Origin: an uncultured Kordiimonas sp.
Lineage (GTDB): Bacteria > Pseudomonadota > Alphaproteobacteria > Sphingomonadales > Kordiimonadaceae
Direction: 5' to 3'
Assembly (NCBI GenBank): GCA_947500295.1
Contig: CANMRM010000006.1
Location: forward strand, 124,001 to 188,000
Length of the DNA stretch: 64,000 nucleotides
Within the stretch, counting starts at the first letter, position 1. Each line of letters begins with the position of its first letter. This document shows positions 12,869 through 25,398 of the stretch, in pieces. Both the position numbers and the translations under genes were made by a program. The notes under the pieces were generated by a model, which saw nothing but the letters and a program-made list of their open reading frames with translations, did not search any database and was not told the origin of the DNA.

Positions 12869-13825
12869 CTACAGCTTTCCGATATCATACTCGCGAACTT
12901 GCATATCCAGAGTGATGTGATCTGAAAAGCTGTGTTGGCTTACCGTACGCATAATGTTTGCAATTTGCCTGTACAGCTCCACGCGCCGGCTGCCCGGGCG
13001 CCAAGCGAGCACAACACCGCGGGCAAAGGGAGCGCCGGTAAAGTGCCTTGATGTAACGTCCTGGCGCTGCGATATCTCAGAGCGAACATAAAGAGACGGC
13101 AGGAAAGCGACACCCAGTCCAGTACCGATCATGTGACGCAGTGTATCGAGGCTGGTGCCTTCATAGTCTCGCAGCAGCCGCGCTTCATACTGGGCGGCGA
13201 TCGTTTGCATGAGGTCGAACAGACGATGCTTTTCCTCAATAGCCAGCAGGCTTTCGCCTCTCAGGTCATCGGGGGTCACTGCCTCCTGATCGGCGAATGG
13301 ATGATCGTTTGCACACACCAGAAGCAGCGGTTCGTTGAAAAGCGGTTCGAGCCCCAGGTTGGGTATTTCCATCGGCAATGTGGTAATAATGAAATCATAG
13401 TCGCCATGCAGCAACCCCACTTCAAGATCGCGGGGAGCATCCTCGCGTACAAAAACCTTCAGCCCCGGGAAAGCGCTGTGAATTGCAGGAATGACTTCTG
13501 GTAACAGGTAGGGGCCGAGGGTTGGAGGTACACCCAGGCGGTAGGTACCAACCAGACTGCCTTCGGATTCTGCGGCCAGTCGCTGTATCATCGCGACTTG
13601 TTCAAGGATGGTTTCAATGTGGGGCATAACCGAGCGGCCAAAGGGCGTGAGCTGAGCCCCCTTGCGGGACCGTTCGAGTAGCGTAACGCCGAGCTTGCTT
13701 TCAAGCGCGTTGATCTGGGCGGTCAGTGTTGGCTGAGCCACATCCAGTCTATCTGCCGCTCCACGAAAACTGCGCGCCTGACTGACTGACAGCAAATAGC
13801 GCAATTGTTTTATGGTCGGTTCCAT
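12869..13825 (-). CDS. LysR-type regulator, OxyR-like but lacking the redox cysteines
   Basis: 318 aa from the ATG at 13825 (MEPTIKQLRYLLSV), the natural start of a LysR winged helix; the frame is open to 13867. The HTH (residues ~18-37) and the C-terminal motif SLDTLRHMIGTGLGVAFLP are closest to OxyR. The peroxide-sensing cysteines are absent: Arg201 and Ala210 align with OxyR C199 and C208, and the only Cys is C171. It is divergent from carbonic anhydrase and a SulP anion transporter, so it more likely senses a metabolite and controls inorganic-carbon supply. An ATAG-N7-CTAT box lies in the shared promoter region. Confidence 0.85.
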   Translation of the reverse strand: MEPTIKQLRYLLSVSQARSFRGAADRLDVAQPTLTAQINALESKLGVTLLERSRKGAQLTPFGRSVMPHIETILEQVAMIQRLAAESEGSLVGTYRLGVPPTLGPYLLPEVIPAIHSAFPGLKVFVREDAPRDLEVGLLHGDYDFIITTLPMEIPNLGLEPLFNEPLLLVCANDHPFADQEAVTPDDLRGESLLAIEEKHRLFDLMQTIAAQYEARLLRDYEGTSLDTLRHMIGTGLGVAFLPSLYVRSEISQRQDVTSRHFTGAPFARGVVLAWRPGSRRVELYRQIANIMRTVSQHSFSDHITLDMQVREYDIGKL

Positions 13826-13845
13826 GACTTCACAAAAACTCACTG

Positions 13846-13909
13846 ATAGTTTATTAACGATAGTCAAATACTATCATAAAAAAGTGAAAATCATAGATAT
13901 AATAAATAG
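13846..13909. promoter_or_regulatory. OxyR/LysR-type operator cluster
   Basis: GATAGT-caaat-ACTATC (13859-13875) is a perfect dyad containing ATAG-N7-CTAT, the core of the OxyR recognition unit. Further ATAG elements lie at 13846-13849, 13893-13896 and 13906-13909. The patch is ~20-85 bp upstream of the LysR gene and ~120-185 bp upstream of the carbonic anhydrase start, suiting autoregulation and divergent activation. Confidence 0.55.
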
Positions 13910-14029
13910 ATGCTAAGTGTTAATTTTATGTATGAATATGCGATCTGGGGACCGATGGCAGAAATTTCTGCAACCCTTTTGCCCCGACCGCTCCCAACCC
14001 AGGTATCTTCAGTACAGGATGGACACACA

Positions 14030-14683
14030 ATGAAGAAAGTTATGCAGGGCGTCTCCCGTTTCAAAAACGAGGTCTACCCAAAGCACAAGGAGTTGTTTGA
14101 GAAACTGTCTTCCGGTCAGGCACCGGAAGTATTGTTCATTACATGCGCGGACAGTCGTATTGATGCAAACCTGATTACGCAGACCGGGCCAGGAGATTTG
14201 TTCCATGTCCGCAATGCCGGAAACATCGTGCCGCCTCACGGTGTCGATGCTGGCGGTACTGTGGCATCAATCGAATTTGCGGTTGGCGCACTGGGTACCA
14301 CGGAGCTGGTGATTTGCGGACACAGTGACTGCGGTGCCATGAAAGGCGCGCTTGCACCGGAAGGACTTGGTGATTTTCCTCATGTTTGTAACTGGTTGCG
14401 CCATACCGATGCGGCCGTGAAGGTCGTGAAGGAAAACCATGCGGATCTGGAAGGCCAGGATCGCCTTGAACGCATGATTGAAGAGAATGTGGTTGCACAA
14501 CTGCGTAATCTGCAAACTCACCCATTTGTCGCTGCCCGCTTGGCGGCAGGCAAAGTGCGGCTCCACGGTTGGGTCTATGATATCGGCGCAGGCGAAATCT
14601 CTTCCTACAATTTGGATGAGAAGACATGGGGTCCACTCTCGGAAGCAGAAATTTCTCAGCTTCCCGGCGTTTCAGCGGCGTAG
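14030..14683 (+). CDS. Beta-class carbonic anhydrase
   Basis: 217 aa from ATG 14030 (MKKVMQGVSRFKNEVYPKH), the conserved start of this family, with AGGA at 14016-14019; the frame is open to 13910, but those 40 residues are not conserved in character. Zinc ligands Cys39, His98 and Cys101 and the catalytic pair Asp41-Arg43 are visible (ITCADSR; CGHSDCGAM). It interconverts CO2 and bicarbonate in the cytoplasm. It is followed 15 bp later by a SulP transporter, so the two probably form a bicarbonate uptake and conversion unit under the divergent LysR regulator. Confidence 0.93.
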   Translation: MKKVMQGVSRFKNEVYPKHKELFEKLSSGQAPEVLFITCADSRIDANLITQTGPGDLFHVRNAGNIVPPHGVDAGGTVASIEFAVGALGTTELVICGHSDCGAMKGALAPEGLGDFPHVCNWLRHTDAAVKVVKENHADLEGQDRLERMIEENVVAQLRNLQTHPFVAARLAAGKVRLHGWVYDIGAGEISSYNLDEKTWGPLSEAEISQLPGVSAA

Positions 14684-14698
14684 GAAGAGAATAACAAA

Positions 14699-16369
14699 AT
14701 GGCATTTTTTGATACACGCAACCTGCGCGGCGACATTATGGGCGGTGTTACCACCGGCGTCGTGGCGCTTCCTCTGGCGCTTGCATTTGGTGAAGCATCA
14801 GGGGCTGGCCCAATCGCCGGCCTGTATGGCGCAATTATCGTAGGCTTCTTTGCCGCCATGTTTGGTGGTACAGGCGCCAATGTTTCTGGTCCTACCGGCC
14901 CCATGATTGTGGTGTTTGCCGGTGTGTTTGCCAGTCTTTCAGGTGATCCAGCGCTGGTGTTCCTGGCCGTGATACTGGCTGGGGTTATCCAGATACTGCT
15001 CGGGGTATTCAAGTTCGGACAGTATATCAAGCTGGTTCCGTACCCGGTTGTTTCGGGGTTTATGAGCGGGATTGGCTGTATCATCATTGCACTCCAAACC
15101 GCACGACTGTTTGGCCATGAGCCCATTGGAAAAGGTACGATCCCGGCGCTTCAGTCCATTCCTGGCGCTGTTGCTGATCCTAACTGGGTGGCTTTGTTAC
15201 TGGGTGTACTGACGCTTGCGATCGTCTTTTTCTGGCCGAAAAATCTCGGCAAATGGATCCCGGGTGCCTTGGCGGCGCTACTGATTGGTACAGTTCTGAG
15301 TATTGCAATTCCGGGCGCACCGATTTTAGGCGACATTCCAACCGGGCTGCCTTCACTGGTTGTGCCTGCATTTGAAGCTGATGCCATGTTTATAGTGCTT
15401 GAAGCTGCTATCCTTTTGGCATTGCTGGGCGCAATCGACAGTCTTTTGACCTCTCTCGTAGCGGACAATATGACACGGACACAGCACGATTCAGACAAAG
15501 AGCTGATCGGGCAGGGTATTGGTAACAGTATTGCTGGCTTTTTTGGTGCTATTCCGGGTGCCGGTGCGACCATGCGGACAGTGGTCAACATCCGCTCAGG
15601 CGGTTCAACCAAAATTTCCGGCATGATCCATGGTGTGCTGTTGTTTGCAGTCGCTATCGTTTTGGCACCGCTTGCATCACAGATTCCGCACGCTGTTCTT
15701 GCCGGTATCCTTGTTAAGGTTGGTTATGACATCATCGATGTGGCTTACCTTAAGCGCGCCCACAGGGGCCCGCGCTGGGACTTGGCCCTGATGGTGGTTG
15801 TGCTGACATTGACTGTGTTTGTTGACCTCATCACTGCAGTTGCCGTCGGCGTTGTTCTTGCGGCTCTCGCGTTTGTTAAACAAACGGCCGACGAGCAGCT
15901 TAAGTCCCTGATGAGCATTGAGCCTCGCACAGATCATCCTGAGGAGCTGAAGATTCTTCGTGAAGCCAAGGGTCGGATCACAATGTTTGATTTTGGCGGA
16001 CCACTGAGCTTTGGTGCGGCGGCTGACCTTGGTCACCAGGTTCGCGACAAATGGAAAGACGGGCACGCAGCGTTGATTATGGATTTTTCCCGCACGCCAA
16101 ACGTTGATCTGTCTGCTATTAAAGCGATTGAGACCATTGCAGAAGATGCGGAAGTTGCAGGCAAGCAGCTGTTGATCTCTGGCGCTTCCGGCGAAATCAA
16201 TGATCTGTTGCACGGCCTTGATGTTGGGCAGAAAATTCCTGAGGCTCATTGGTTCGACAGTCGACAGGCCGCGCTTAACTACGCGCTGTCACACCTGAAA
16301 AAGAATGAATCAATGATAGTGGAAGAAGAAAAGTCTTCGGGAAAAGCGGCTAATCAACCTGCGGAATAG
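14699..16369 (+). CDS. SulP family anion transporter (probable bicarbonate transporter) with STAS domain
   Basis: 556 aa. It has ~10-12 hydrophobic segments over residues ~8-400, beginning with the SulP signature region (DIMGGVTTGVVALPLALAFG) and containing GPTGPM. A C-terminal STAS domain (~430-530: ITMFDFGGPLSFGAA, then ALIMDFSRTPNVDLSAIKAIE) follows. SulP proteins move sulfate, bicarbonate or dicarboxylates. Pairing with carbonic anhydrase favours bicarbonate, as in BicA-type systems. The start ATG follows GGAAGAG. Two strong hairpins follow the gene. Confidence 0.9.
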   Translation: MAFFDTRNLRGDIMGGVTTGVVALPLALAFGEASGAGPIAGLYGAIIVGFFAAMFGGTGANVSGPTGPMIVVFAGVFASLSGDPALVFLAVILAGVIQILLGVFKFGQYIKLVPYPVVSGFMSGIGCIIIALQTARLFGHEPIGKGTIPALQSIPGAVADPNWVALLLGVLTLAIVFFWPKNLGKWIPGALAALLIGTVLSIAIPGAPILGDIPTGLPSLVVPAFEADAMFIVLEAAILLALLGAIDSLLTSLVADNMTRTQHDSDKELIGQGIGNSIAGFFGAIPGAGATMRTVVNIRSGGSTKISGMIHGVLLFAVAIVLAPLASQIPHAVLAGILVKVGYDIIDVAYLKRAHRGPRWDLALMVVVLTLTVFVDLITAVAVGVVLAALAFVKQTADEQLKSLMSIEPRTDHPEELKILREAKGRITMFDFGGPLSFGAAADLGHQVRDKWKDGHAALIMDFSRTPNVDLSAIKAIETIAEDAEVAGKQLLISGASGEINDLLHGLDVGQKIPEAHWFDSRQAALNYALSHLKKNESMIVEEEKSSGKAANQPAE

Positions 16370-16383
16370 CCACCAACCCGGAC

Positions 16384-16469
16384 ACCGGTCGGGCCTTTTA
16401 CCCGGCCGGTCGTGGTTCAAAATGGATGGACAAAAAAAGAAAGCCCGGTGATTGGATCGCCGGGCTTTC
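16384..16469. terminator. Pair of hairpins between convergent SulP and chrR genes
   Basis: The first hairpin pairs 16384-16393 with 16401-16410 (10 bp including one G-T). The second pairs GAAAGCCCGG (16439-16448) with CCGGGCTTTC (16460-16469). The A tract at 16432-16438 becomes a T tract on the minus strand, so the second hairpin is a good terminator for the sigma/anti-sigma operon. The first probably ends the SulP transcript, though without a T run. Confidence 0.7.
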
Positions 16470-16514
16470 GTCGTTGCGGGGGTGCTGGATTTATAATCTG
16501 AATTGGATCGACGT

Positions 16515-17210
16515 TTACAATCCGATAAACGGTTGAATGGTTCTGGCAATAAAGCTTTTGAGCTTGATGGGAGCTTCAGTGACGACCAGGCAGATGCAGT
16601 CTTCTCCTTCGTCGATGACCGGGCGATGGTCTTCGATATCGTCCGCCGCAAACTCAAGGTCGCCAACACCAAAGCGATGGCCATCAACACAATAGCTGCC
16701 TTGCAATACCAAAGTCATTTCACTGCCATTATGGCCATGCTCGGGAATTTCCGTGCCGCCTTTTGCCTTGAGCAGCCAAAGTTTTTCGCCGTCTTTACCG
16801 GTCCAAAGCTTAACCTGTTTCATGCCGGGGCCCATAAAGCGCCACTTCAGGTCATCAAGGGAGCCTTCAAGGTAATCGGCAAGAGGTTGGGGTACGCGTG
16901 GGTCGCGATGCTGAGCCTCAATGTTGATTGGGCCCTCCGCCTCATCGCCCTGTGCGTCAATCTCATCCATCAGCCTGTCAAAAAATCCCTCTGACAAGTC
17001 TGCACCGTCGCCGGCACCAAGCAGGGCGCCACCAATATTTTCGGCATCCCTGATCTTCGTTTGCAGGGCAGGATGAAAACTCGCGTGCGTTGCCACAAGC
17101 GTAGCTTTCGCTTCGCTGAGGTTTCCTGCTGCATAGTCAACCACCCATTCGTCAGACAACAGGCGCTCTGGTGCATTGCCTTCCGGCGATTTTTGAACCT
17201 CGGGGTTCAT
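16515..17210 (-). CDS. chrR: ChrR-family anti-sigma factor (cupin type)
   Basis: 231 aa from the ATG at 17210, which overlaps the sigma-factor stop as TGATG. The C-terminal cupin (~125-215) keeps its metal ligands: His158, His160, Glu164 and His195, the positions needed for the singlet-oxygen response in Rhodobacter sphaeroides ChrR. The N-terminal anti-sigma domain (~12-60: DEWVVDYAAGNL, LVATHASFHPAL) is recognisable, but its zinc site is degenerate. His42 is kept, His46 replaces the first Cys, Leu replaces the second, and the upstream His is missing. It should bind and inactivate the adjacent sigma factor until a signal frees it. Confidence 0.85.
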   Translation of the reverse strand: MNPEVQKSPEGNAPERLLSDEWVVDYAAGNLSEAKATLVATHASFHPALQTKIRDAENIGGALLGAGDGADLSEGFFDRLMDEIDAQGDEAEGPINIEAQHRDPRVPQPLADYLEGSLDDLKWRFMGPGMKQVKLWTGKDGEKLWLLKAKGGTEIPEHGHNGSEMTLVLQGSYCVDGHRFGVGDLEFAADDIEDHRPVIDEGEDCICLVVTEAPIKLKSFIARTIQPFIGL

Positions 17211-17884
17211 CAATAGTCTCCTAACTCTACACGTAGCTTTTGGAACGCAATGCGTATCCGGGACTTCACCGTACCAAGCGGAAGCCCCAAAGCTTCAGAG
17301 ATCTGCGAGTGCGACATGTCTTTATAGAAAGACAGCTCGATCACTTGCCGCAAATCCGGTTTTAAAATCTTCAATGCGTTAACGATACGTTTCTGATCCT
17401 GCATCTGGATCACAGGCTCGTCAGTTTTTTCCGCGGCTTCCATGACTTGAACATGATTGTCTACGTCAACTTCGATGTATTTTTGCCGCCGGACCTTGTC
17501 GATAAACTTGTTCCGCGCAATGCGAAACAGCCAGGTAGACAAGCGGGCTTTATCCGGATCAAACAAGTGGGCCTTCTGCCATACGGTCACCATTACTTCC
17601 TGGGTCAGGTCTTCGGCGACTTCGTCGGTTACCTTTTGCTTCAGGATAAAGGATTTGATACGGGGCGCAAAATGGGCAAACAGTTGCTGAAACGCTTTTC
17701 TGTCACGATCTTTAGCGACCTTGACTGCAAGAGATTCCAACGTGTCTGACGTCGCAACAGAGATAGACAATCCCTTCCTGGCAATAGTACGTTTGTTTTC
17801 CTCATTCCGAGAAAAACACTGCTGTAGACCGGGTGTCAAGACATCCGTGGCATTGTCAGCGCGTGCTTGCGAATTGGCGTACAT
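17210..17884 (-). CDS. rpoE: ECF RNA polymerase sigma factor (RpoE, ECF11-like)
   Basis: 224 aa. The sigma-2 region (residues ~64-133: AFQQLFAHFAPRIKSFI, then LTQEVMVTVWQKA and TWLFRIARNKFIDKVRR) and sigma-4 region (~165-219: LRQVIELSFYKDMSHSQISEAL, GTVKSRIR) are complete. Pairing with a cupin ChrR anti-sigma defines the group known from the singlet-oxygen response of R. sphaeroides. The first ~45 residues have no family counterpart I recognise, so the true start could be internal. However, a good ECF promoter ends ~29 bp upstream of this ATG and would give a leader of about 22 bases. Stop and chrR start overlap. Confidence 0.9.
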   Translation of the reverse strand: MYANSQARADNATDVLTPGLQQCFSRNEENKRTIARKGLSISVATSDTLESLAVKVAKDRDRKAFQQLFAHFAPRIKSFILKQKVTDEVAEDLTQEVMVTVWQKAHLFDPDKARLSTWLFRIARNKFIDKVRRQKYIEVDVDNHVQVMEAAEKTDEPVIQMQDQKRIVNALKILKPDLRQVIELSFYKDMSHSQISEALGLPLGTVKSRIRIAFQKLRVELGDY

Positions 17885-17912
17885 AAAAATCCCACCGCAT
17901 ATGGTCTGAAAC

Positions 17913-17941
17913 TCTGTACGCGCCCAAAAGACTTTGGATCA
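17913..17941 (-). promoter_or_regulatory. ECF11-type promoter of the sigma/anti-sigma operon
   Basis: On the minus strand, TGATCC (17941-17936) is followed after 17 bp by TACAGA (17918-17913). TGATCC is the -35 element of the R. sphaeroides RpoE regulon. Predicted start near 17906 gives a leader of ~22 bases before rpoE, so the operon is probably autoregulated. Confidence 0.72.
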
Positions 17942-18000
17942 CGTACATAATATCGCGGCTGGCTTATTCGCGGAATTCTGCAAGTTTTTATCCGCAGCTT

Positions 18001-18030
18001 TGATCCGCTTCGAAGCAGCCGGCGTAGACA
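18001..18030 (+). promoter_or_regulatory. ECF11-type promoter of the lipid operon
   Basis: TGATCC (18001-18006), an 18-bp spacer, then TAGACA (18025-18030). The element is divergent from the rpoE promoter 60 bp away and gives a leader of ~60 bases to the ATG at 18100. Confidence 0.72.
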
Positions 18031-18099
18031 GCTTTAATTCCCATGGCCTGCATCATGCAGGTGTAAGTGTCTGTAATTTATAAATATTTAGAGTGCGCG

Positions 18100-19437
18100 A
18101 TGTCTCATCGGAAAATTGCTATCATCGGTTCAGGTATCTCTGGAATGTCGGCTGCATGGCATCTTCACCGCACCCACGACATCACTGTTTTTGAGCAGTC
18201 GTCATATGTTGGCGGGCACAGCAATACGGTTGATGTTTTGCTGGATGGCAAGTCTTTTCCGGTCGACACGGGCTTTATCGTTTTCAATCCCACAAACTAT
18301 CCCAACCTCACAGCGCTTTTCGAGCTTCTGGGTGTTGATACAGTCGCCACAGACATGTCTTTCGCTGTTTCCATGCAACAGGGCAGCTTCGAGTACTCAG
18401 GCGGAGACAACGCAGGGCTGTTGGCACAGCCACTAAACCTGTTCCGGCCGAGATTCTGGCGCATGGTTCTGGGTATTCTACGCTTCTACCGCGAGGTGGA
18501 AGTGTTTGAAGAAGAAGCATTATCTGACGGCCTCAGTCTTGGTGCACTTCTTGACCGGCACGGGTTCTCGCGTGCATTTATAGAGGACCATCTGGCACCC
18601 ATGGGGGCCGCGATCTGGTCAAGCGACAGCCATGACATCCTTAACTATCCCGCAGCGTCTTTTCTCAGCTTTTTTAGAAATCACGGCCTTGTCCAGCTTG
18701 CGGACCGACCACAGTGGCGCACTGTTGTCGGGGGCAGCCGAGAATATGTTCGTCGCCTGACTTCGGATTTCCGGGACAGGATCCACTTGAATAAGGCGGT
18801 CAGGCAGATCAATCGGCATGGGACCGGTGTGGACATTGTGGACGAATTCGGTGTCACGAACCGCTTTGATGAAGTGGTTCTTGCCTGCCACTCCGATCAG
18901 GCCCTCAGGTTGCTCTCGGATCCAACGCCGATGGAGGCCAATGCCTTGAGCAAGATGCGCTATAGCAAAAACACAGCAGTGTTGCATACGGATCGAAGCT
19001 GGTTACCCAAACGAAAAAAGGCATGGGCGAGCTGGAACTATATGGAAGCGCCGGCTGGCTGTGGTTCAATTGGCCCTGCAATTACCTACTGGATGAACCG
19101 GCTTCAGCACTTGCCTGTCGAAACACCTGTCATGGTGACGCTCAATCCTTATGAGGATGTGGCAGATGGTCATGTACTGGACAGGTTTGACTATGAGCAT
19201 CCCATTTTTGACCAGGCCGCCCATTCTGCCAGAAAACTGTTGATGGCTGCCCAGGGCGCAAACCGTACCTGGTATGCGGGCGCCTATCTCGGTGACGGTT
19301 TCCATGAAGATGGTATTCAAGCCGGTTTGGCCGTGGCGGAGATGATAAGTGGCGTTCCCAGGCCTTGGCTGCGGCCAAATCAAAATGCGCGTATTGGTCT
19401 GCCCGATGTGCTCATAGCGGCGGAAGCCGCGCAATGA
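18100..19437 (+). CDS. FAD-dependent oxidoreductase (amine oxidase-like, COG2907 type)
   Basis: 445 aa from ATG 18100 (MSHRKIAIIGSGISGMSAAW); an in-frame GTG at 18067 is less likely because the dinucleotide-binding fold begins right at MSHRK. GSGISG at residues 10-15 binds FAD, with the acidic end of strand 2 in VFEQ. The family also includes desaturases and oxidases acting on lipids. Homologues sit in RpoE-controlled operons with DUF1365 and Cfa-type genes, and a related protein is implicated in making furan fatty acids in R. sphaeroides. It would act on membrane acyl chains; that role is inferred. The stop overlaps the next start (ATGA). Confidence 0.85.
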   Translation: MSHRKIAIIGSGISGMSAAWHLHRTHDITVFEQSSYVGGHSNTVDVLLDGKSFPVDTGFIVFNPTNYPNLTALFELLGVDTVATDMSFAVSMQQGSFEYSGGDNAGLLAQPLNLFRPRFWRMVLGILRFYREVEVFEEEALSDGLSLGALLDRHGFSRAFIEDHLAPMGAAIWSSDSHDILNYPAASFLSFFRNHGLVQLADRPQWRTVVGGSREYVRRLTSDFRDRIHLNKAVRQINRHGTGVDIVDEFGVTNRFDEVVLACHSDQALRLLSDPTPMEANALSKMRYSKNTAVLHTDRSWLPKRKKAWASWNYMEAPAGCGSIGPAITYWMNRLQHLPVETPVMVTLNPYEDVADGHVLDRFDYEHPIFDQAAHSARKLLMAAQGANRTWYAGAYLGDGFHEDGIQAGLAVAEMISGVPRPWLRPNQNARIGLPDVLIAAEAAQ

Positions 19438-20312
19438 GAAATCCAGTTCGCATGCTGAACTCTAGACTTATGGTCGGCACCGTCTGGCACAAGCGATACG
19501 CTCCCCGTTGTCACGAGTTTTCTTATCAGGTTTTTTATGGCCTGTTCGATCTCGATGAACTTGCAGACCTGGATCGCCAATCCTGGATTTTCAGCGTTGA
19601 CCGGGCGGCCCCTTTTTCGATCCATCAAGCCGACTATGGCCTGAAGCCGGGTCAGAATGGAAAGGATCTTAAAAAGCGTATTGCTGAGCTGATCAGGCGT
19701 CAGTTTGGCGACGAGGTGAAACGTGTAGAGTTGCTGACCATGCCGAGGGTGTTTGGATATGCTTTCAATCCCATTTCGGTTTATTATTGTTTCGCCGAGG
19801 CCGGCTCACTTTCCCATGTCATTTATGAAGTCAACAACACCTTTGGTGAGCGTTTTTCCTATTTGTTTTCTGTCGAGGTAGAGGAGGGTGCTCTTGCATC
19901 GCATGGGTGCGAAAAACAATTGCATGTGTCGCCGTTTTTTGACGTGTCAGGTGGCTATAGGTTTCGTCAGAACAAAGAGCCGAAGGCGATCAGGCTTGCG
20001 ATTGACTACCGATCCGGCGCGCTGGAACTTGAACCAAGTTCGGCGTCTTCGCCAGAACCGGACTTAGCTGGAAATACATGTCGCCAAAAAACGTTCTCGG
20101 CGACTATGTCTTTGCAAAAAAAAGAGTTTTCCTCTCAAAACCTGCTGCGAGCATCCGTCCGCATACCCTTCGTGACTTTGAAAGTGATGGCTGCAATTCA
20201 TTGGCAGGCGCTTCTACTCTGGATCAAAAAGCATCGTATTTTTCGAAAACCCCCGGGCCCTGAAACCAGCCTTGGTGCAGAGGGGGAAATCAATAAAGGA
20301 CAGCAGGCATGA
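19434..20312 (+). CDS. DUF1365 domain protein
   Basis: 292 aa from the ATG at 19434, fixed by the four-base overlap with the preceding stop. The family start is recognisable (GTVWHKRYAPRCHEFSYQVFY), as is the conserved core RVFGYAFNPISVYYC, followed by VNNTFGE. DUF1365 proteins are nearly always next to a COG2907 oxidoreductase and a Cfa-type methyltransferase. Their biochemical role is unknown; a partner role in acyl-chain modification is inferred from this conserved trio. One hydrophobic stretch near the C-terminus (~250-268) may touch the membrane. The stop overlaps the next gene as ATGA. Confidence 0.88.
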   Translation: MRNPVRMLNSRLMVGTVWHKRYAPRCHEFSYQVFYGLFDLDELADLDRQSWIFSVDRAAPFSIHQADYGLKPGQNGKDLKKRIAELIRRQFGDEVKRVELLTMPRVFGYAFNPISVYYCFAEAGSLSHVIYEVNNTFGERFSYLFSVEVEEGALASHGCEKQLHVSPFFDVSGGYRFRQNKEPKAIRLAIDYRSGALELEPSSASSPEPDLAGNTCRQKTFSATMSLQKKEFSSQNLLRASVRIPFVTLKVMAAIHWQALLLWIKKHRIFRKPPGPETSLGAEGEINKGQQA

Positions 20313-21541
20313 TGGATGGAACCTACCGACGCACAATGGCAATGGACCGCGCAGAACAACCCCTGAAAGCAATTGAAAAACTATTTGCCAAGGTCATGGA
20401 CAACATTGAGCTTGGTCAGCTGATTGTGAGGTTTCCCTCGGGTGCTGAACGCAGTTTTGTTGGCGCTCCTATGGGGTTAGGTGGACACCTTATTGGTGAA
20501 ATGCACATTCATAGCTGGTCTGCCTTGTCTCGTTCACTCAAGGCGGGGACCATTGGCTTGGCAGAGGGTTTTATGGCGGGCGAGTGGACCAGCCCCGATT
20601 TGACTAACCTGCTGCGTGTCCTTGCAGCAAACATGGACCGCCTCGAGGCGAGGCTGAAAAAAGCACCGCTGAGAAAGCTGAGGGAGCGAGCAGGCCATTG
20701 GCTAAATCGCAACAATAAAACCGGTAGTCGTCGCAACATCAGCTACCACTATGATCTGGGCAACGACTTTTACGCTTTGTGGCTTGATGAAACCATGACC
20801 TATTCTGCAGGTCTTTTTTCTCTTGGGGCCTCCTCGCTCGCAGAAGCACAAACTGCAAAATATGCGGCACTTGCCGATGCTGTGGGTATTGTGCAAGGAG
20901 ATCATGTTCTTGAAATCGGATGTGGTTGGGGCGGTTTTGCGGAATACGCCATCCGCGAACTGGGGTGTCATGTAACGGGTGTGACACTATCAAAAGAGCA
21001 ACTATCGTTTGCCAATGCCCGACTGCAGAAAGCCGGTTTGGCGCACAAGGCGGATTTGCGCCTGTGCGACTATCGTGACCTTGAGGGGGAGTTTGACCAT
21101 GTCATCTCGATCGAGATGCTGGAAGCAGTCGGTGAAGACTATTGGCCGACATATTTTGAGCAGGTCAAGCGTCTCTTGAAGCCTCGCGGTCGAGCCGGCA
21201 TCCAGGTCATCACCATAGCTGACGAGCGTTTTGACAAGTATCGCCAGAGTGTTGATTTTATTCAGAAATATATTTTCCCTGGCGGCATGCTGCCGTCGGA
21301 TAAAGTTTTGAAACGTTTGTTTGATGAGTATGGATTTGATGTGCGCTCCCAGCGGGACTTCGGCATGGGATACGCACAAACTCTGAAGCTATGGCATCAG
21401 CGTTATTCTGCCAGGCGAACGCAAACCGAAGACATGGGCTACGACGATAAATTTGATCGCATGTGGCGATTTTACCTGAGTTACTGCGAGGCCGGCTTTC
21501 GCCAAAACACCATCGACGTTTCACAATATGTGATCGGCTGA
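20309..21541 (+). CDS. Cyclopropane-fatty-acyl-phospholipid synthase family methyltransferase
   Basis: 410 aa. It transfers a methyl(ene) group from S-adenosylmethionine to a double bond in membrane phospholipid acyl chains. Visible motifs are the lipid-side YHYDLGNDFY (146-155), the SAM-binding VLEIGCGWGG (200-209), and C-terminal YAQTLKLWHQR. In the RpoE regulon of R. sphaeroides a Cfa relative acts as the methylase of furan fatty acid synthesis, so this one may make methylated or furan lipids and not simple cyclopropanes. The start ATG overlaps the preceding stop; a second ATG lies 3 bp later. Confidence 0.9.
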   Translation: MMDGTYRRTMAMDRAEQPLKAIEKLFAKVMDNIELGQLIVRFPSGAERSFVGAPMGLGGHLIGEMHIHSWSALSRSLKAGTIGLAEGFMAGEWTSPDLTNLLRVLAANMDRLEARLKKAPLRKLRERAGHWLNRNNKTGSRRNISYHYDLGNDFYALWLDETMTYSAGLFSLGASSLAEAQTAKYAALADAVGIVQGDHVLEIGCGWGGFAEYAIRELGCHVTGVTLSKEQLSFANARLQKAGLAHKADLRLCDYRDLEGEFDHVISIEMLEAVGEDYWPTYFEQVKRLLKPRGRAGIQVITIADERFDKYRQSVDFIQKYIFPGGMLPSDKVLKRLFDEYGFDVRSQRDFGMGYAQTLKLWHQRYSARRTQTEDMGYDDKFDRMWRFYLSYCEAGFRQNTIDVSQYVIG

Positions 21542-21545
21542 AAAA

Positions 21546-22853
21546 GTGGGTAATTCAACCGAGAAGCTTACTGTTTTTGGCTATGCGTTGCCTGCATTTG
21601 CCTTTTCGTTCCCGCTTATTCCGTTTGCTGTGTTTTTGCCGGTTTTTTACTCTGAAGACATGGCGTTGGGGTATTTGCCCGTCGGGATCGCGCTGTTTCT
21701 GGCGCGGATCGTTGATGTTCTTAGTGACCCTCTGGCTGGTTATTTAAGCGATTTTCGCCCCATTCGTGGCAGTTTTCGCAAATCCTGGATCGCAATTGGT
21801 GCCGTGATCGCTGGTGTTGCCCTGGTGATGATCACCCGTGTGGAACCGGGAGTTTCTGCCCTGCATCTCGGGGTTTGGTCTGCAGTCCTTTATATCGGCT
21901 GGACCCTTGTCACAGTGCCCTACCTCTCGCTCGGGGCAGAACTGGCCAACAGCTACGAGGCGAAAACCCTATACACGACGGCGCGAGAGGCGGTTTCACT
22001 CGTGGGAATGCTCGGAGCGCTGAGCCTGCCGTTTTTTCTTGGTGAGGGAGAGCCGGTTATTCCCGCTATCCCCATTGCTCTGGTACCGATTGGCCTGATC
22101 TGTCTGGCGGTATTTTTTCTGTTGGTTCCAGAACGCAGCCATCATTCATCCGTGCCGGAGTTTCGTCTGAGCCATTTTAAGGAGGTGTTGACCCAAACGC
22201 GGTTTCCGCGCCTGGGCATCATCTGGTTTGTTACATCGGCTGCCAGCACTGTGCCTGCGGTCTTGTTCCCCATTTATGTTGAGCAGGCTCTTGCAGGAAG
22301 TGAACAGCAACAAAACCTTTCAATCCTCATTTATTTTGTTGCTGCGGTCGCTGGTATGCCGTTTTGGCTTTGGTTTGCCAGAGGTCGCATGAAGCATCAG
22401 GTAATGGCATTGAGCACCCTCATAGTGTGCCTGACGTTCCCTATTGCGGTATTGCTGGGGCCGGGGCAGGTGGGCATATTTTACTGTGTCTGTGTTGTCA
22501 CCGGGTTTGCCCTTGCAGCAGAATTGTCACTGGCTCCTTCAATGTTGGCCGATGTGGCAGATCTGGATCGTGCTGAAAATGGGGAAGCACGTACCGCAAT
22601 ACATTTTAGCTTGTGGGGCATGACCAGCAAGGTAGCTCTGGCGACGGCAACCCTACTGGCACTGGGCTCCATGGAAATTATTGTCATGACTGTCGAGGAA
22701 GGTGCTCGCGGTCCTTATGTGGCTCTTCTATACGCCGGACTGCCTGTTGCCCTGAAAATCCCTGTCATACTGATGCTTAAACGTTTCCCGTTTGTGGTGT
22801 CAGACCGTGATCTGATCCGGTCCCAGGACCGTACAAAAACTGCAAATACCTAG
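21546..22853 (+). CDS. MFS transporter (glycoside-pentoside-hexuronide/MFS_2 type)
   Basis: 435 aa with about 12 hydrophobic segments. The MFS_2 signature follows TM2 (LARIVDVLSDPLAGYLSDF, residues ~50-68). The start is GTG at 21546, only 4 bp after the preceding stop. Relatives carry sugars with cations, but some (MFSD2/LplT-like) move lipids. Its place between a Cfa-type lipid enzyme and a DUF3833 lipoprotein suggests lipid or lysolipid movement across the inner membrane. That substrate is inference. Confidence 0.82.
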   Translation: MGNSTEKLTVFGYALPAFAFSFPLIPFAVFLPVFYSEDMALGYLPVGIALFLARIVDVLSDPLAGYLSDFRPIRGSFRKSWIAIGAVIAGVALVMITRVEPGVSALHLGVWSAVLYIGWTLVTVPYLSLGAELANSYEAKTLYTTAREAVSLVGMLGALSLPFFLGEGEPVIPAIPIALVPIGLICLAVFFLLVPERSHHSSVPEFRLSHFKEVLTQTRFPRLGIIWFVTSAASTVPAVLFPIYVEQALAGSEQQQNLSILIYFVAAVAGMPFWLWFARGRMKHQVMALSTLIVCLTFPIAVLLGPGQVGIFYCVCVVTGFALAAELSLAPSMLADVADLDRAENGEARTAIHFSLWGMTSKVALATATLLALGSMEIIVMTVEEGARGPYVALLYAGLPVALKIPVILMLKRFPFVVSDRDLIRSQDRTKTANT

Positions 22854-22867
22854 AAAGGAGAGGATGA

Positions 22868-23500
22868 ATGTTCTCTCGAGCGGCGGTTGCCCTGTCAGCC
22901 CTATTTTTATTGAGTGCATGTGGAACCACAATGAAACTGGAAGATTTCAAATCGACAGCGCCAACACTTCAGCTTGAAGACTATTTTGAAGGGTCTTCGA
23001 AGGCATGGGGTTTGTTTGAGGATCGTTTCGGCAACGTTCGCACCCAGTTCTGGGTCGATATTCAGGGCACGTGGGACGGTACGACCCTGGTACTCGATGA
23101 AGACTTTCTGTATGCCAACGGTGACACCGAGCAACGGACATGGACAATTTTAAAAACCGGCCCCAATACTTACGAGGGCCAGACCGAAAATGTCATCGGG
23201 GTTGCCACGGGTGAGACATCAGGTAACGCCTTCAACTGGCGCTATGATTTTAATCTGGACGTTGGCGATGGCGACATCTGGAAAGTGCACTTCGATGACT
23301 GGATGTTTTTGCAGAAGGACGGCGTGTTGTTGAACAAGGCCCGGGTCAAGCGCTGGGGCATCACGATCGGCACGGTTTTCATTTCCTTCACCAAAGACCC
23401 GGCCAAGGCAGAACAACCGGTTGCCTACAATGACCCTGCCAACGAAGCGGGTAACCAAGACACGTTGACGGCTGCGATCCGGCGAAGCGCCGAGCGGTAA
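22868..23500 (+). CDS. DUF3833 lipoprotein
   Basis: 210 aa. A lipoprotein signal ends in LLSAC (Cys18), so the mature protein should be anchored in the outer or inner membrane facing the periplasm. The rest fits the DUF3833 family: LEDYFEGSSKAWGLFEDRFGN, then a repeated beta-rich pattern with DIQGTWDG and FDDWMFLQKDGVLLNKARVKRWG. The fold is probably lipocalin-like (inference). It is the last gene of the sigma-controlled operon, with AGAAAGGAGAGG before its ATG and a terminator 35 bp after its stop. Confidence 0.85.
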   Translation: MFSRAAVALSALFLLSACGTTMKLEDFKSTAPTLQLEDYFEGSSKAWGLFEDRFGNVRTQFWVDIQGTWDGTTLVLDEDFLYANGDTEQRTWTILKTGPNTYEGQTENVIGVATGETSGNAFNWRYDFNLDVGDGDIWKVHFDDWMFLQKDGVLLNKARVKRWGITIGTVFISFTKDPAKAEQPVAYNDPANEAGNQDTLTAAIRRSAER

Positions 23501-23573: not shown

Positions 23574-24320
23574 TTATCCGGAGATTTTGCTGGCAATCGC
23601 AAGGAAAAGTCTGTTCGGCATGCGTTTGAGAATTTGCATGGCAATACTCATCCGCCAAGGGAAGGCAATCTGGAATTTTGAGCTTTCCAGACCACGGATC
23701 ATAGCCCCAACAGCTCGGTCGACCGGCATCAGAAAGGGCATCGGGAACTTGTTCAGGTCAGTCAGCGGTGTTTTTACAAAGCCGGGGCACACAAGACGTA
23801 AATCGATACCTTCGGCCTTCAGTTCCGGCTGCATGCTTTCACAAAGGTTTATCAACGCAGCTTTTGACGCGCCGTAGGCGCCCGCGCGCGGCAGGCCACG
23901 GTATCCTGCGACAGAAGCAACAACAGCAATCTGGCCGCTACCCCGTTCCAGAAACACGGGCAAACAGGCGTTTAACCCATTGAGTACGCCGTTGAAGTTG
24001 ATGCTCATCAGGCGCAGATGATCCTCAAGGATGAAATTCGTCGACGACGTTGGTTTGTGCGTGCCGGCGTTCAGCACGACAAGGTCAGGCACACCCTTTT
24101 GCTCACATATTCTGGTGAAAACAGCTGCCATGCGCTCGGCATCACAAACGTCACCGGCAAGCGCGATCACCTGGCCGGAGCAGGGTGCGCATTCATCAAC
24201 CAGGGAGATGAGGTTTTCCTCGCTGCGGGCGGTAGCAAAAACATTGTGGCCGGCCTGTGCATACTGGCGTGCCAGTTCACGGCCAATCCCGGTACTTGCT
24301 CCGGTTATCCAGACAATCAT
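23574..24320 (-). CDS. Short-chain dehydrogenase/reductase
   Basis: 248 aa. The Rossmann motif TGASTGIG (residues ~6-13), NAG (~86-88) and active-site Y-G-A-S-K are all present, so it should be an active NAD(P)-dependent oxidoreductase. Its start ATG overlaps the stop of the DUF6134 gene (ATGA), so the two are co-translated from the promoter at ~25155. Convergent orientation to the Cfa operon together with a matching ECF promoter suggests it belongs to the same stress response, possibly reducing a carbonyl from oxidised lipid. That function is inferred; the substrate is unknown. Confidence 0.85.
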   Translation of the reverse strand: MIVWITGASTGIGRELARQYAQAGHNVFATARSEENLISLVDECAPCSGQVIALAGDVCDAERMAAVFTRICEQKGVPDLVVLNAGTHKPTSSTNFILEDHLRLMSINFNGVLNGLNACLPVFLERGSGQIAVVASVAGYRGLPRAGAYGASKAALINLCESMQPELKAEGIDLRLVCPGFVKTPLTDLNKFPMPFLMPVDRAVGAMIRGLESSKFQIAFPWRMSIAMQILKRMPNRLFLAIASKISG

Positions 24321-25066
24321 GACGCCGCCGCACTGGCGGAGGCAGTTTTATGGTCGGGCAAACCGCATTTTAAGCATCGAAACTCTATCAGAGAGCCGTC
24401 TTTGTGTTCAAACGCCATGCCGCTCCAGTTTCCCGCGCGGTCATAAAAACTATTGATCGCAAGCTCTCCATCGACCGTAAACTGCGTTACTGCTTTCTCG
24501 CCCAGTTCGGTTTGCATAATGGCTTCGCCAGCAGGTTGATACGATACAGCGTTTATCTTGCCGGTGATGGTGTTGAAAACCTTGTCAGTCTTCACAACAC
24601 CGGCGTTCCAATGATTGGTTGTGTAAAAGTCTGCCGGCAGCTCATAGGACTTGCCGTTCAGTTCTGCGATAAACCGCTTGTCATTGTTGACCGCCAGCGT
24701 GTTTGTTTTGGTTCCGTTGTCGTTAACCCGGGTTTCCACCTTCAGGAGCTTGTCGCCGCACCAAAGTTCCTCGGAGACATACTCATATTTGAAGACTGTC
24801 ACGAAAAGCAGTTTGACCTTCATCTCGGTTCGAGCCGTCACTTTTGTTCCGGCATCGGTTTCGTCAAACCATATACGGTGCGTACCGATCTTCTTGTTCT
24901 TGCGCAAAACCTCGTATTCGAGGTCGTCAATGTCGGAGAATTTGGAGGAGAGCCCATGGTCAGTGCATTGAGGAAATGACAGCGAGGAATGAAGACCGTC
25001 GGCACTGAGTGGTGAGCTCGTTACTAATGCCAGGGAAGCGAGTATAACAAGCTTGTCCTTCACCAT
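24317..25066 (-). CDS. DUF6134 family exported protein
   Basis: 249 aa with a signal peptide (MVKDKLVILASLALVTSSPL). The mature part is beta-rich, with LEYEVLRKNKKIGTHRIWF and VTARTEMKVKLLFVTVFKYEY, matching the DUF6134/DUF3108-like pattern of periplasmic proteins of unknown function whose fold resembles lipid-handling proteins. AGGAGAG precedes the ATG. The stop overlaps the SDR start. An ECF11-type promoter lies ~88-117 bp upstream, placing it in the sigma/ChrR regulon; a role in handling modified lipids in the periplasm is inference. Confidence 0.75.
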   Translation of the reverse strand: MVKDKLVILASLALVTSSPLSADGLHSSLSFPQCTDHGLSSKFSDIDDLEYEVLRKNKKIGTHRIWFDETDAGTKVTARTEMKVKLLFVTVFKYEYVSEELWCGDKLLKVETRVNDNGTKTNTLAVNNDKRFIAELNGKSYELPADFYTTNHWNAGVVKTDKVFNTITGKINAVSYQPAGEAIMQTELGEKAVTQFTVDGELAINSFYDRAGNWSGMAFEHKDGSLIEFRCLKCGLPDHKTASASAAAS

Positions 25067-25398
25067 TGAGCTCTCCTCACAAATTGTCTTACGTGCCTGT
25101 CGGCAAACTGGATTGAAATTAATTGAAACTTTTTTTCGTTTCCTTTGTTTCCCTTGTTACGCCCTGGCGCAGTTTCCGGATCACCTCAGTTTTACGACAA
25201 ATTGAATCAAACTATGTTTTTGTTTTTAAATAAAAAAAACGGGAATTAGTTGTAAAATTTCGCGTTAAAATATTGTTAACCGATCACACGCAATATCGCT
25301 ACGAATCACGATAAAACCTCAGGCAAGGTTATCGGGCACACAGGCAAACGAACTCATCAGGCGGTGTATTTGTTTGGTCAATCGGAACGGAGACGACT
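25067..25398. other. 332-bp non-coding gap between divergent genes
   Basis: The gap is AT-rich, with homopolymer runs. It holds the ECF11-type promoter for the minus-strand pair (25154-25183). On the plus strand only AT-rich, loosely promoter-like sequence precedes the transglutaminase-like gene. No small ORF with a convincing ribosome site was found. Confidence 0.6.
25154..25183 (-). promoter_or_regulatory. Third ECF11-type promoter, upstream of DUF6134-SDR
   Basis: On the minus strand, TGATCC (25183-25178), an 18-bp spacer, then TAACAA (25159-25154). The spacing matches the lipid-operon promoter at 18001. The predicted leader is ~80 bases. Confidence 0.62.

Follow-up and report, generated by a model that had tools for sequence, protein, structure and literature searches.

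A predicted ECF11 stress locus in Kordiimonas, divergent from a putative furan-fatty-acid operon, carries a ChrR lacking three of four anti-sigma-domain zinc ligands

We analyzed a 64,000-nucleotide stretch of DNA, hereafter the window, from the 4.27 Mb genome of an uncultured Kordiimonas sp. (contig CANMRM010000006.1). Among named organisms, Kordiimonas species and Kordiimonadaceae come nearest to it. The window holds an rpoE-type extracytoplasmic function (ECF) sigma factor gene directly upstream of a chrR-type gene, which encodes an anti-sigma domain (ASD) followed by a cupin domain. The sigma factor gene (17210-17884, minus strand; 224 residues as listed, with a real start that may lie further in) matches Pfam Sigma70_r2/r4, and its closest solved structure is Rhodobacter sphaeroides RpoE (2q1z_A, E=1.6e-37; the runner-up, SigK, reaches 6.6e-19). 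The anti-sigma factor gene (16515-17210, minus strand; ATG at 17210, TTG at 17213 in the open reading frame list) encodes a protein that scores 167.6 bits against TIGR02451, above the family cut-off of 124.5, and matches the ChrR structure 2z2s_B at E=3.1e-42. These values bear out the rpoE-chrR identity proposed in a first-pass annotation of the letters. The narrower model NF051881 (cadmium/peroxide/UV-responsive ChrR equivalog) scores 151 bits, below its curated cut-off of 300. The rpoE stop codon and the chrR ATG share the sequence TGATG, with GGAG upstream of chrR, and this overlap suggests that the two genes are translationally coupled.

A 215-bp gap (17885-18099) separates the rpoE ATG (17884) from a divergent plus-strand ATG at 18100, the first of an operon resembling the furan-fatty-acid (ufa) genes. 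Its first gene (18100-19437) encodes a flavin amine-oxidase-family protein (PF01593), here called UfaD-like from its gene family and its position next to UfaO and divergent from rpoE; its assignment as a fatty acyl desaturase comes from synteny. The second (19431-20312) encodes a UfaO-like DUF1365 protein (PF07103, E=4.5e-75), the domain borne by UfaO homologues (PMC7380195; papers are cited by PubMed Central identifier). The third (20309-21541) encodes a CMAS-family S-adenosylmethionine-dependent methyltransferase (PF02353, E=1.7e-84), a candidate UfaM (the 11-methyltransferase, as opposed to a cyclopropane synthase) by its family and gene order: the Rhodopseudomonas palustris ufa cluster RPA2571-2568 likewise runs UfaD-UfaO-UfaM (RPA2571-2570-2569; PMC7380195). 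An MFS_2 transporter gene (21546-22853, PF13347) and a DUF3833 gene (22868-23500, PF12915) complete the plus-strand operon.

Within the gap, the first-pass annotation had read two divergent ECF11-type promoters, and the sequence contains each motif in precisely the form given: TGATCC-N17-TACAGA at 17941-17913 on the minus strand, and TGATCC-N18-TAGACA at 18001-18030 on the plus strand. The published ECF11 consensus, TGATCC-N16-CGTA, derives from the PSPTO_1043 regulon of the gammaproteobacterium Pseudomonas syringae (PMC5507510). When the two sites are aligned to it, a check that the annotation itself had suggested, both fit, as TGATCC-N15-CGTA facing rpoE-chrR (17917-17941, minus strand) and TGATCC-N16-CGTA facing the ufa operon (18001-18026, plus strand). 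The sites stand as predicted ECF11 promoters, with -10 elements better described as CGTA than as TACAGA or TAGACA. A third site that the annotation had not listed, TGATCC-N16-CGTA at 25158-25183 on the minus strand, belongs to the same set and is a predicted promoter of a convergent gene pair described below.

How far these motifs exceed chance depends on how they are written. The loose form, TGATCCN16-19TANNNA, occurs 3 times in the window against 0.89 expected, a count reached or exceeded in 8 of 100 shuffles, and 68 times genome-wide; being near chance, it was rejected as proof. A variant with CGTANNA at its end failed to pick up either divergent site and was dropped. The strict form, TGATCC-N15/16-CGTA, occurs 3 times in the window against 0.17 expected, and none of 100 shuffles reaches 3. 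Genome-wide it has 11 matches, 3 of which lie within 7.3 kb at this locus. Reversed-pattern controls gave 7 (loose) and 1 (strict) matches genome-wide, and shuffles were used in their place because the reversed pattern holds CTAG. Since 11 is about the number expected by chance, we rejected any attempt to draw a genome-wide regulon from the strict pattern. These genome-wide counts, loose and strict alike, are what would be expected if the divergent sites were chance matches and a housekeeping sigma factor transcribed rpoE and the lipid operon. Yet a search of 16400-18200 found no sigma-70-like promoter, against a chance expectation of 1.6, and the behavior of the sites across species speaks far more strongly.

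To score that behavior we used the 79 named loci of a ChrR alignment; rpoE was found in 78 of these and in the window, giving 79 scored loci (of 80), and the counts that follow include the window. On the rpoE side, 58 of the 79 carry an exact site and 74 a site with no more than one mismatch. The divergent neighbor of rpoE is ufaD in 63 of the 79, and in this subset the site facing ufaD matches exactly in 19 loci and with at most one mismatch in 53. Permuted motifs averaged 0.03 matches on the rpoE side and 0.04 on the ufaD side, never exceeding 2, and in shuffled regions sites with up to one mismatch numbered about 1.1 per 63. This cross-species conservation is decisive: the sites are real, and coincidence with housekeeping transcription becomes an extremely improbable account of them. 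A further match, TGATCC-N17-CGTA at 17412 on the minus strand inside rpoE, recurs in close relatives; it was not counted as a promoter, because it lies in coding sequence, where conservation of the protein can explain it.

The third site precedes a minus-strand pair that lies tail to tail with the ufa operon: a DUF6134 gene (24317-25066, PF19630) followed by a short-chain dehydrogenase (SDR) gene (23574-24320, PF00106). Among the 13 loci that possess DUF6134, again including the window, 6 have an exact site upstream of the gene and 11 have one with at most one mismatch. In most of the Rhodobacteraceae loci compared, the SDR match instead shares the orientation of ufaD. Immediately before the reading frame of the only photolyase found in the genome (on contig G000:C1) lies TGATCG-N16-CGTA, which differs from the consensus by one mismatch. 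The first-pass annotation had proposed a local self-amplifying regulon; the promoters and their conservation support self-amplification as an inference, and the photolyase site makes it probable that the regulon is not only local. Two of the eight strict sites outside the locus lie in plausible promoter positions, as judged by eye. One, an exact site roughly 30 bp ahead of a MipA-family gene (L068, G000:C2:90534), may mark a further target; the other lies some 250 bp upstream of a winged-helix (Trans_reg_C) gene.

Divergent rpoE/ufaD synteny spans Kordiimonas, Rhodobacteraceae and Rhizobiales, and the arrangement as such is already known. K. laminariae (L119) retains the adjoining ufa operon; in K. 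gwangyangensis (L122) and K. sediminis (L118) no ufa match turned up within about 10 kb. In R. sphaeroides, a system compared here through its proteins and the literature, the RpoE-ChrR pair (sigma-E, ECF11) and RSP1091-1087 resemble the window in having homologous sigma and ChrR proteins with conserved cupin metal ligands, and a UfaD/UfaO-type operon adjoins rpoE (RSP_1092) as it does here. UfaM is RSP2144 and lies outside the furan operon of R. sphaeroides (PMC7380195), whereas the CMAS gene of the window is inside the corresponding operon. The PSPTO_1043 system of P. syringae shares the promoter consensus, and its targets include its own rpoE-chrR and a phrB operon; the other targets reported in this gammaproteobacterium differ from those of the window (PMC5507510). 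Flanking the Kordiimonas locus, a carbonic anhydrase and a BicA/SulP-type transporter (13910-16369, plus strand) lie tail to tail with chrR and are retained there in several of the closest relatives. A nearby LysR regulator gene (12869-13867, minus strand) has OxyR as its top NCBIfam match, at 192.9 bits against a cut-off of 329.

The unusual part of the locus is ChrR itself. The ASD of R. sphaeroides ChrR holds zinc through H6, H31, C35 and C38, and the zinc is needed for sigma inhibition (PMC6852236). The aligned residues in the window (17064-17162, minus strand; numbered from the TTG at 17213) are L18, H43, H47 and L50. Where the ZAS pattern is H-x24-H-x3-C-x2-C, the window ChrR reads L-x24-H-x3-H-x2-L, and residues 2-107 contain no cysteine at all. 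By alignment, the protein thus lacks three of the four ASD zinc ligands, the equivalents of H6, C35 and C38, and differs in this from its R. sphaeroides counterpart. The cupin metal site is intact, with H159, H161, E165 and H196 (16626-16739, minus strand) corresponding to H141, H143, E147 and H177.

The same state recurs in relatives. All 18 of the closest named loci (at least 52% identity) whose sequence covers the ASD read x-H-H-[L/M] at the four ligand positions, as do none of the less alike loci in the 79-locus set; L125, which lacks ASD coverage, stands outside this count. Together with the window these form a group of 19 rows, in which H43 and H47 are kept throughout, position 50 is L or M, 15 rows have L or I at position 18, position 22 is E in 18 and D in 1, position 23 is W in 18 and F in 1, and all 19 have Y or F at position 46. 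Because positions 47 and 50 define the group, only the other positions are independent counts, and its being one group rests on the tree. There the 19 rows fall on one side of a single branch with support 93, below the tool's mark of 95, in a FastTree reconstruction that leaves out the ASD columns and has several long branches.

With three of the four ligand positions changed, the local ChrR might simply be decaying, leaving the sigma factor uninhibited. The reading frame is open, however, the cupin site is intact, the predicted structure folds confidently, and H-x3-H-x2-[L/M] is common to the 18 relatives in one tree group; moreover, the genome has no second ChrR above the family cut-off, its one other match being weak and limited to the cupin. 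We regard decay as very unlikely.

A domain that persists without Zn(His)2(Cys)2 would have to be stabilized in another way. The likeliest solution is a repacked hydrophobic and aromatic core, most probably involving L18, W23, F46, H47 and L50, with which the ASD would still fold and bind sigma. The main rival is a His-based metal site, in which the ASD would bind metal through H43-x3-H47 together with an acidic side chain (E22 or D21) or with a group donated by sigma or the cupin. The retention of both histidines in the whole group, the acidic residue at position 22 in all 19 rows and the constancy of H47, for which packing offers no obvious explanation, would suit such a site. The two vacated ligand positions are mostly aliphatic, though, and positions 23 and 46 are aromatic, a pattern that looks like repacking; we consider a residual metal site unlikely, if less so than decay. 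The anti-sigma factors RseA and RskA are not ChrR proteins and have no cupin domain. Theirs are non-zinc class I anti-sigma domains and likewise lack the zinc site; zinc and non-zinc anti-sigma domains have already been reported as mixed within groups (PMC7406223).

To place this loss in a broader context, we sampled 385 alphaproteobacterial genomes, in which 130 of the 142 listed ChrRs over the family cut-off were read, the window's own genome not counted. Of these, 100 carry HHCC at the ASD ligand positions, 29 carry other combinations, and one (L262) aligned at neither site, which leaves its cupin unscored. Across all 221 ChrR rows aligned at both sites, HHCC is present in 160 and the cupin signature HHEH in all 221; this set excludes L125 and L262, omits L202 as the same gene as L059, and retains at least one more duplicate (L054/L206). 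When HHCC state is mapped on the tree, 20 changes are needed, 7 of them forced by well-supported branches. An adjoining sigma gene was matched for 21 of the 29 non-HHCC class ChrRs, and in 12 of those 21 an ECF11 site with no more than one mismatch is present; the same script applied to 32 HHCC comparison loci found sigma in 31 and a site in 27 of the 31. In five loci, L139 (RHCS), L172 (QHCA), L177 (QHCS), L101 (YHCS) and L163 (QQCT), H6 and C38 are lost jointly while C35 is kept, and H31 is kept except in L163. A second, more distant ChrR occurs in L202, L337 and L338, of the same genus, with an x-H-C-[L/I] zinc site and a sigma match that starts about 2.3-2.4 kb upstream.

One reading of these data is that the ASD zinc finger is dispensable as a sensor in ECF11, having been lost repeatedly in genuine promoter-bearing rpoE-chrR pairs and replaced once, in the Kordiimonas lineage, by a Cys-free H-x3-H/aromatic core, with the cupin site intact in every aligned row and sensing taking place through it. 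Several observations count against this. No adjoining sigma match was found for 8 of the 29 non-HHCC ChrRs, and for 9 of the 21 sigma-paired loci, one of which (L313) lies near a contig end, a search of 350 bp showed no site with one mismatch or fewer. Rows were also found with ChrR models or peptides that are partly cupin-derived, which favors intact cupins, and because of this bias the contrast between an invariant cupin and a variable ASD is suggestive rather than proof. We regard the dispensability of the zinc finger as evenly balanced between true and false.

Taken as a whole, the window is best read as a conserved ECF11 (RpoE-ChrR) stress locus that drives its own operon, the divergent furan-fatty-acid operon, the DUF6134-SDR unit and probably the photolyase gene, with an ASD that still binds sigma without the usual zinc site; we put the probability of this reading at roughly 0.85. 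ChrR would keep the sigma factor in the cytoplasm and, by extension from R. sphaeroides, would release it or be degraded under stress. The freed sigma factor would then start transcription at 17941 (rpoE-chrR), 18001 (the furan-fatty-acid operon) and 25183 (DUF6134-SDR), with the photolyase gene elsewhere a probable further target. Its action on its own operon would presumably constitute positive autoregulation, and self-amplification together with co-regulation of the lipid operon is well supported as an inference from the promoters. In R. sphaeroides, ChrR turnover requires furan-fatty-acid genes, and a feedback loop through that turnover has been described (PMC6852236); for this reason furan-lipid products may feed back on ChrR turnover here too.

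Promoter sequences, their conservation, gene families, synteny and the loss of three ligands are seen directly, whereas sigma dependence, signal and feedback are predicted. Weighing against the reading are the lack of genome-wide enrichment of the strict motif (11 seen against about 11 expected, from 0.17 x 4.27 Mb/64 kb by window shuffles), the exact ufaD-facing site in only 19 of 63 loci, a structure prediction that models neither metal nor the sigma partner, and the prospect that a ChrR without its ASD ligands is weak or inactive, given the zinc requirement in R. sphaeroides (PMC6852236).

Singlet oxygen, which the first-pass annotation had linked to the locus, is a signal carried over from R. 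sphaeroides by analogy. With three of its four ASD ligands gone, the window ChrR should not be presumed to function in just the same way as its R. sphaeroides counterpart. The signal is probably an oxidant, most likely entering through the cupin site. The regulon could be real and its inducer something else, such as organic hydroperoxides, metals or membrane damage sensed through the cupin site: in a model peptide the ASD zinc finger proved reactive towards singlet oxygen (PMC6432622), and three ligands of that finger are missing here; several inducers act on the Caulobacter system (PMC6852236). On the other side stand the furan-fatty-acid genes and the photolyase site, both typical of the singlet-oxygen system, and the need for the cupin domain in the R. 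sphaeroides singlet-oxygen response (PMC6432622). A different inducer is a real possibility, albeit the lesser one. Donohue's review describes what ASD zinc contributes to the singlet-oxygen response as not precisely known (PMC6852236); the work of Chabert et al. favors the ASD cysteines as part of the sensor (PMC6432622). Among the papers listed by our literature searches, none dealt with a ChrR that lacks the ASD zinc ligands or with this system in a Kordiimonas species, an absence that carries little weight.

The rpoE-chrR and furan-fatty-acid genes have been described as a core regulon (PMC6852236), and the marine Kordiimonas lineage carries the ufa genes and the ECF11 switch together, as that core predicts. 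A ChrR lineage without ASD cysteines, accompanied by targets and promoters of the same kind, makes the sensor question directly testable. If the zinc finger is indeed dispensable, ChrRs without the zinc ligands would be natural mutants for proving that the cupin is the sensor.

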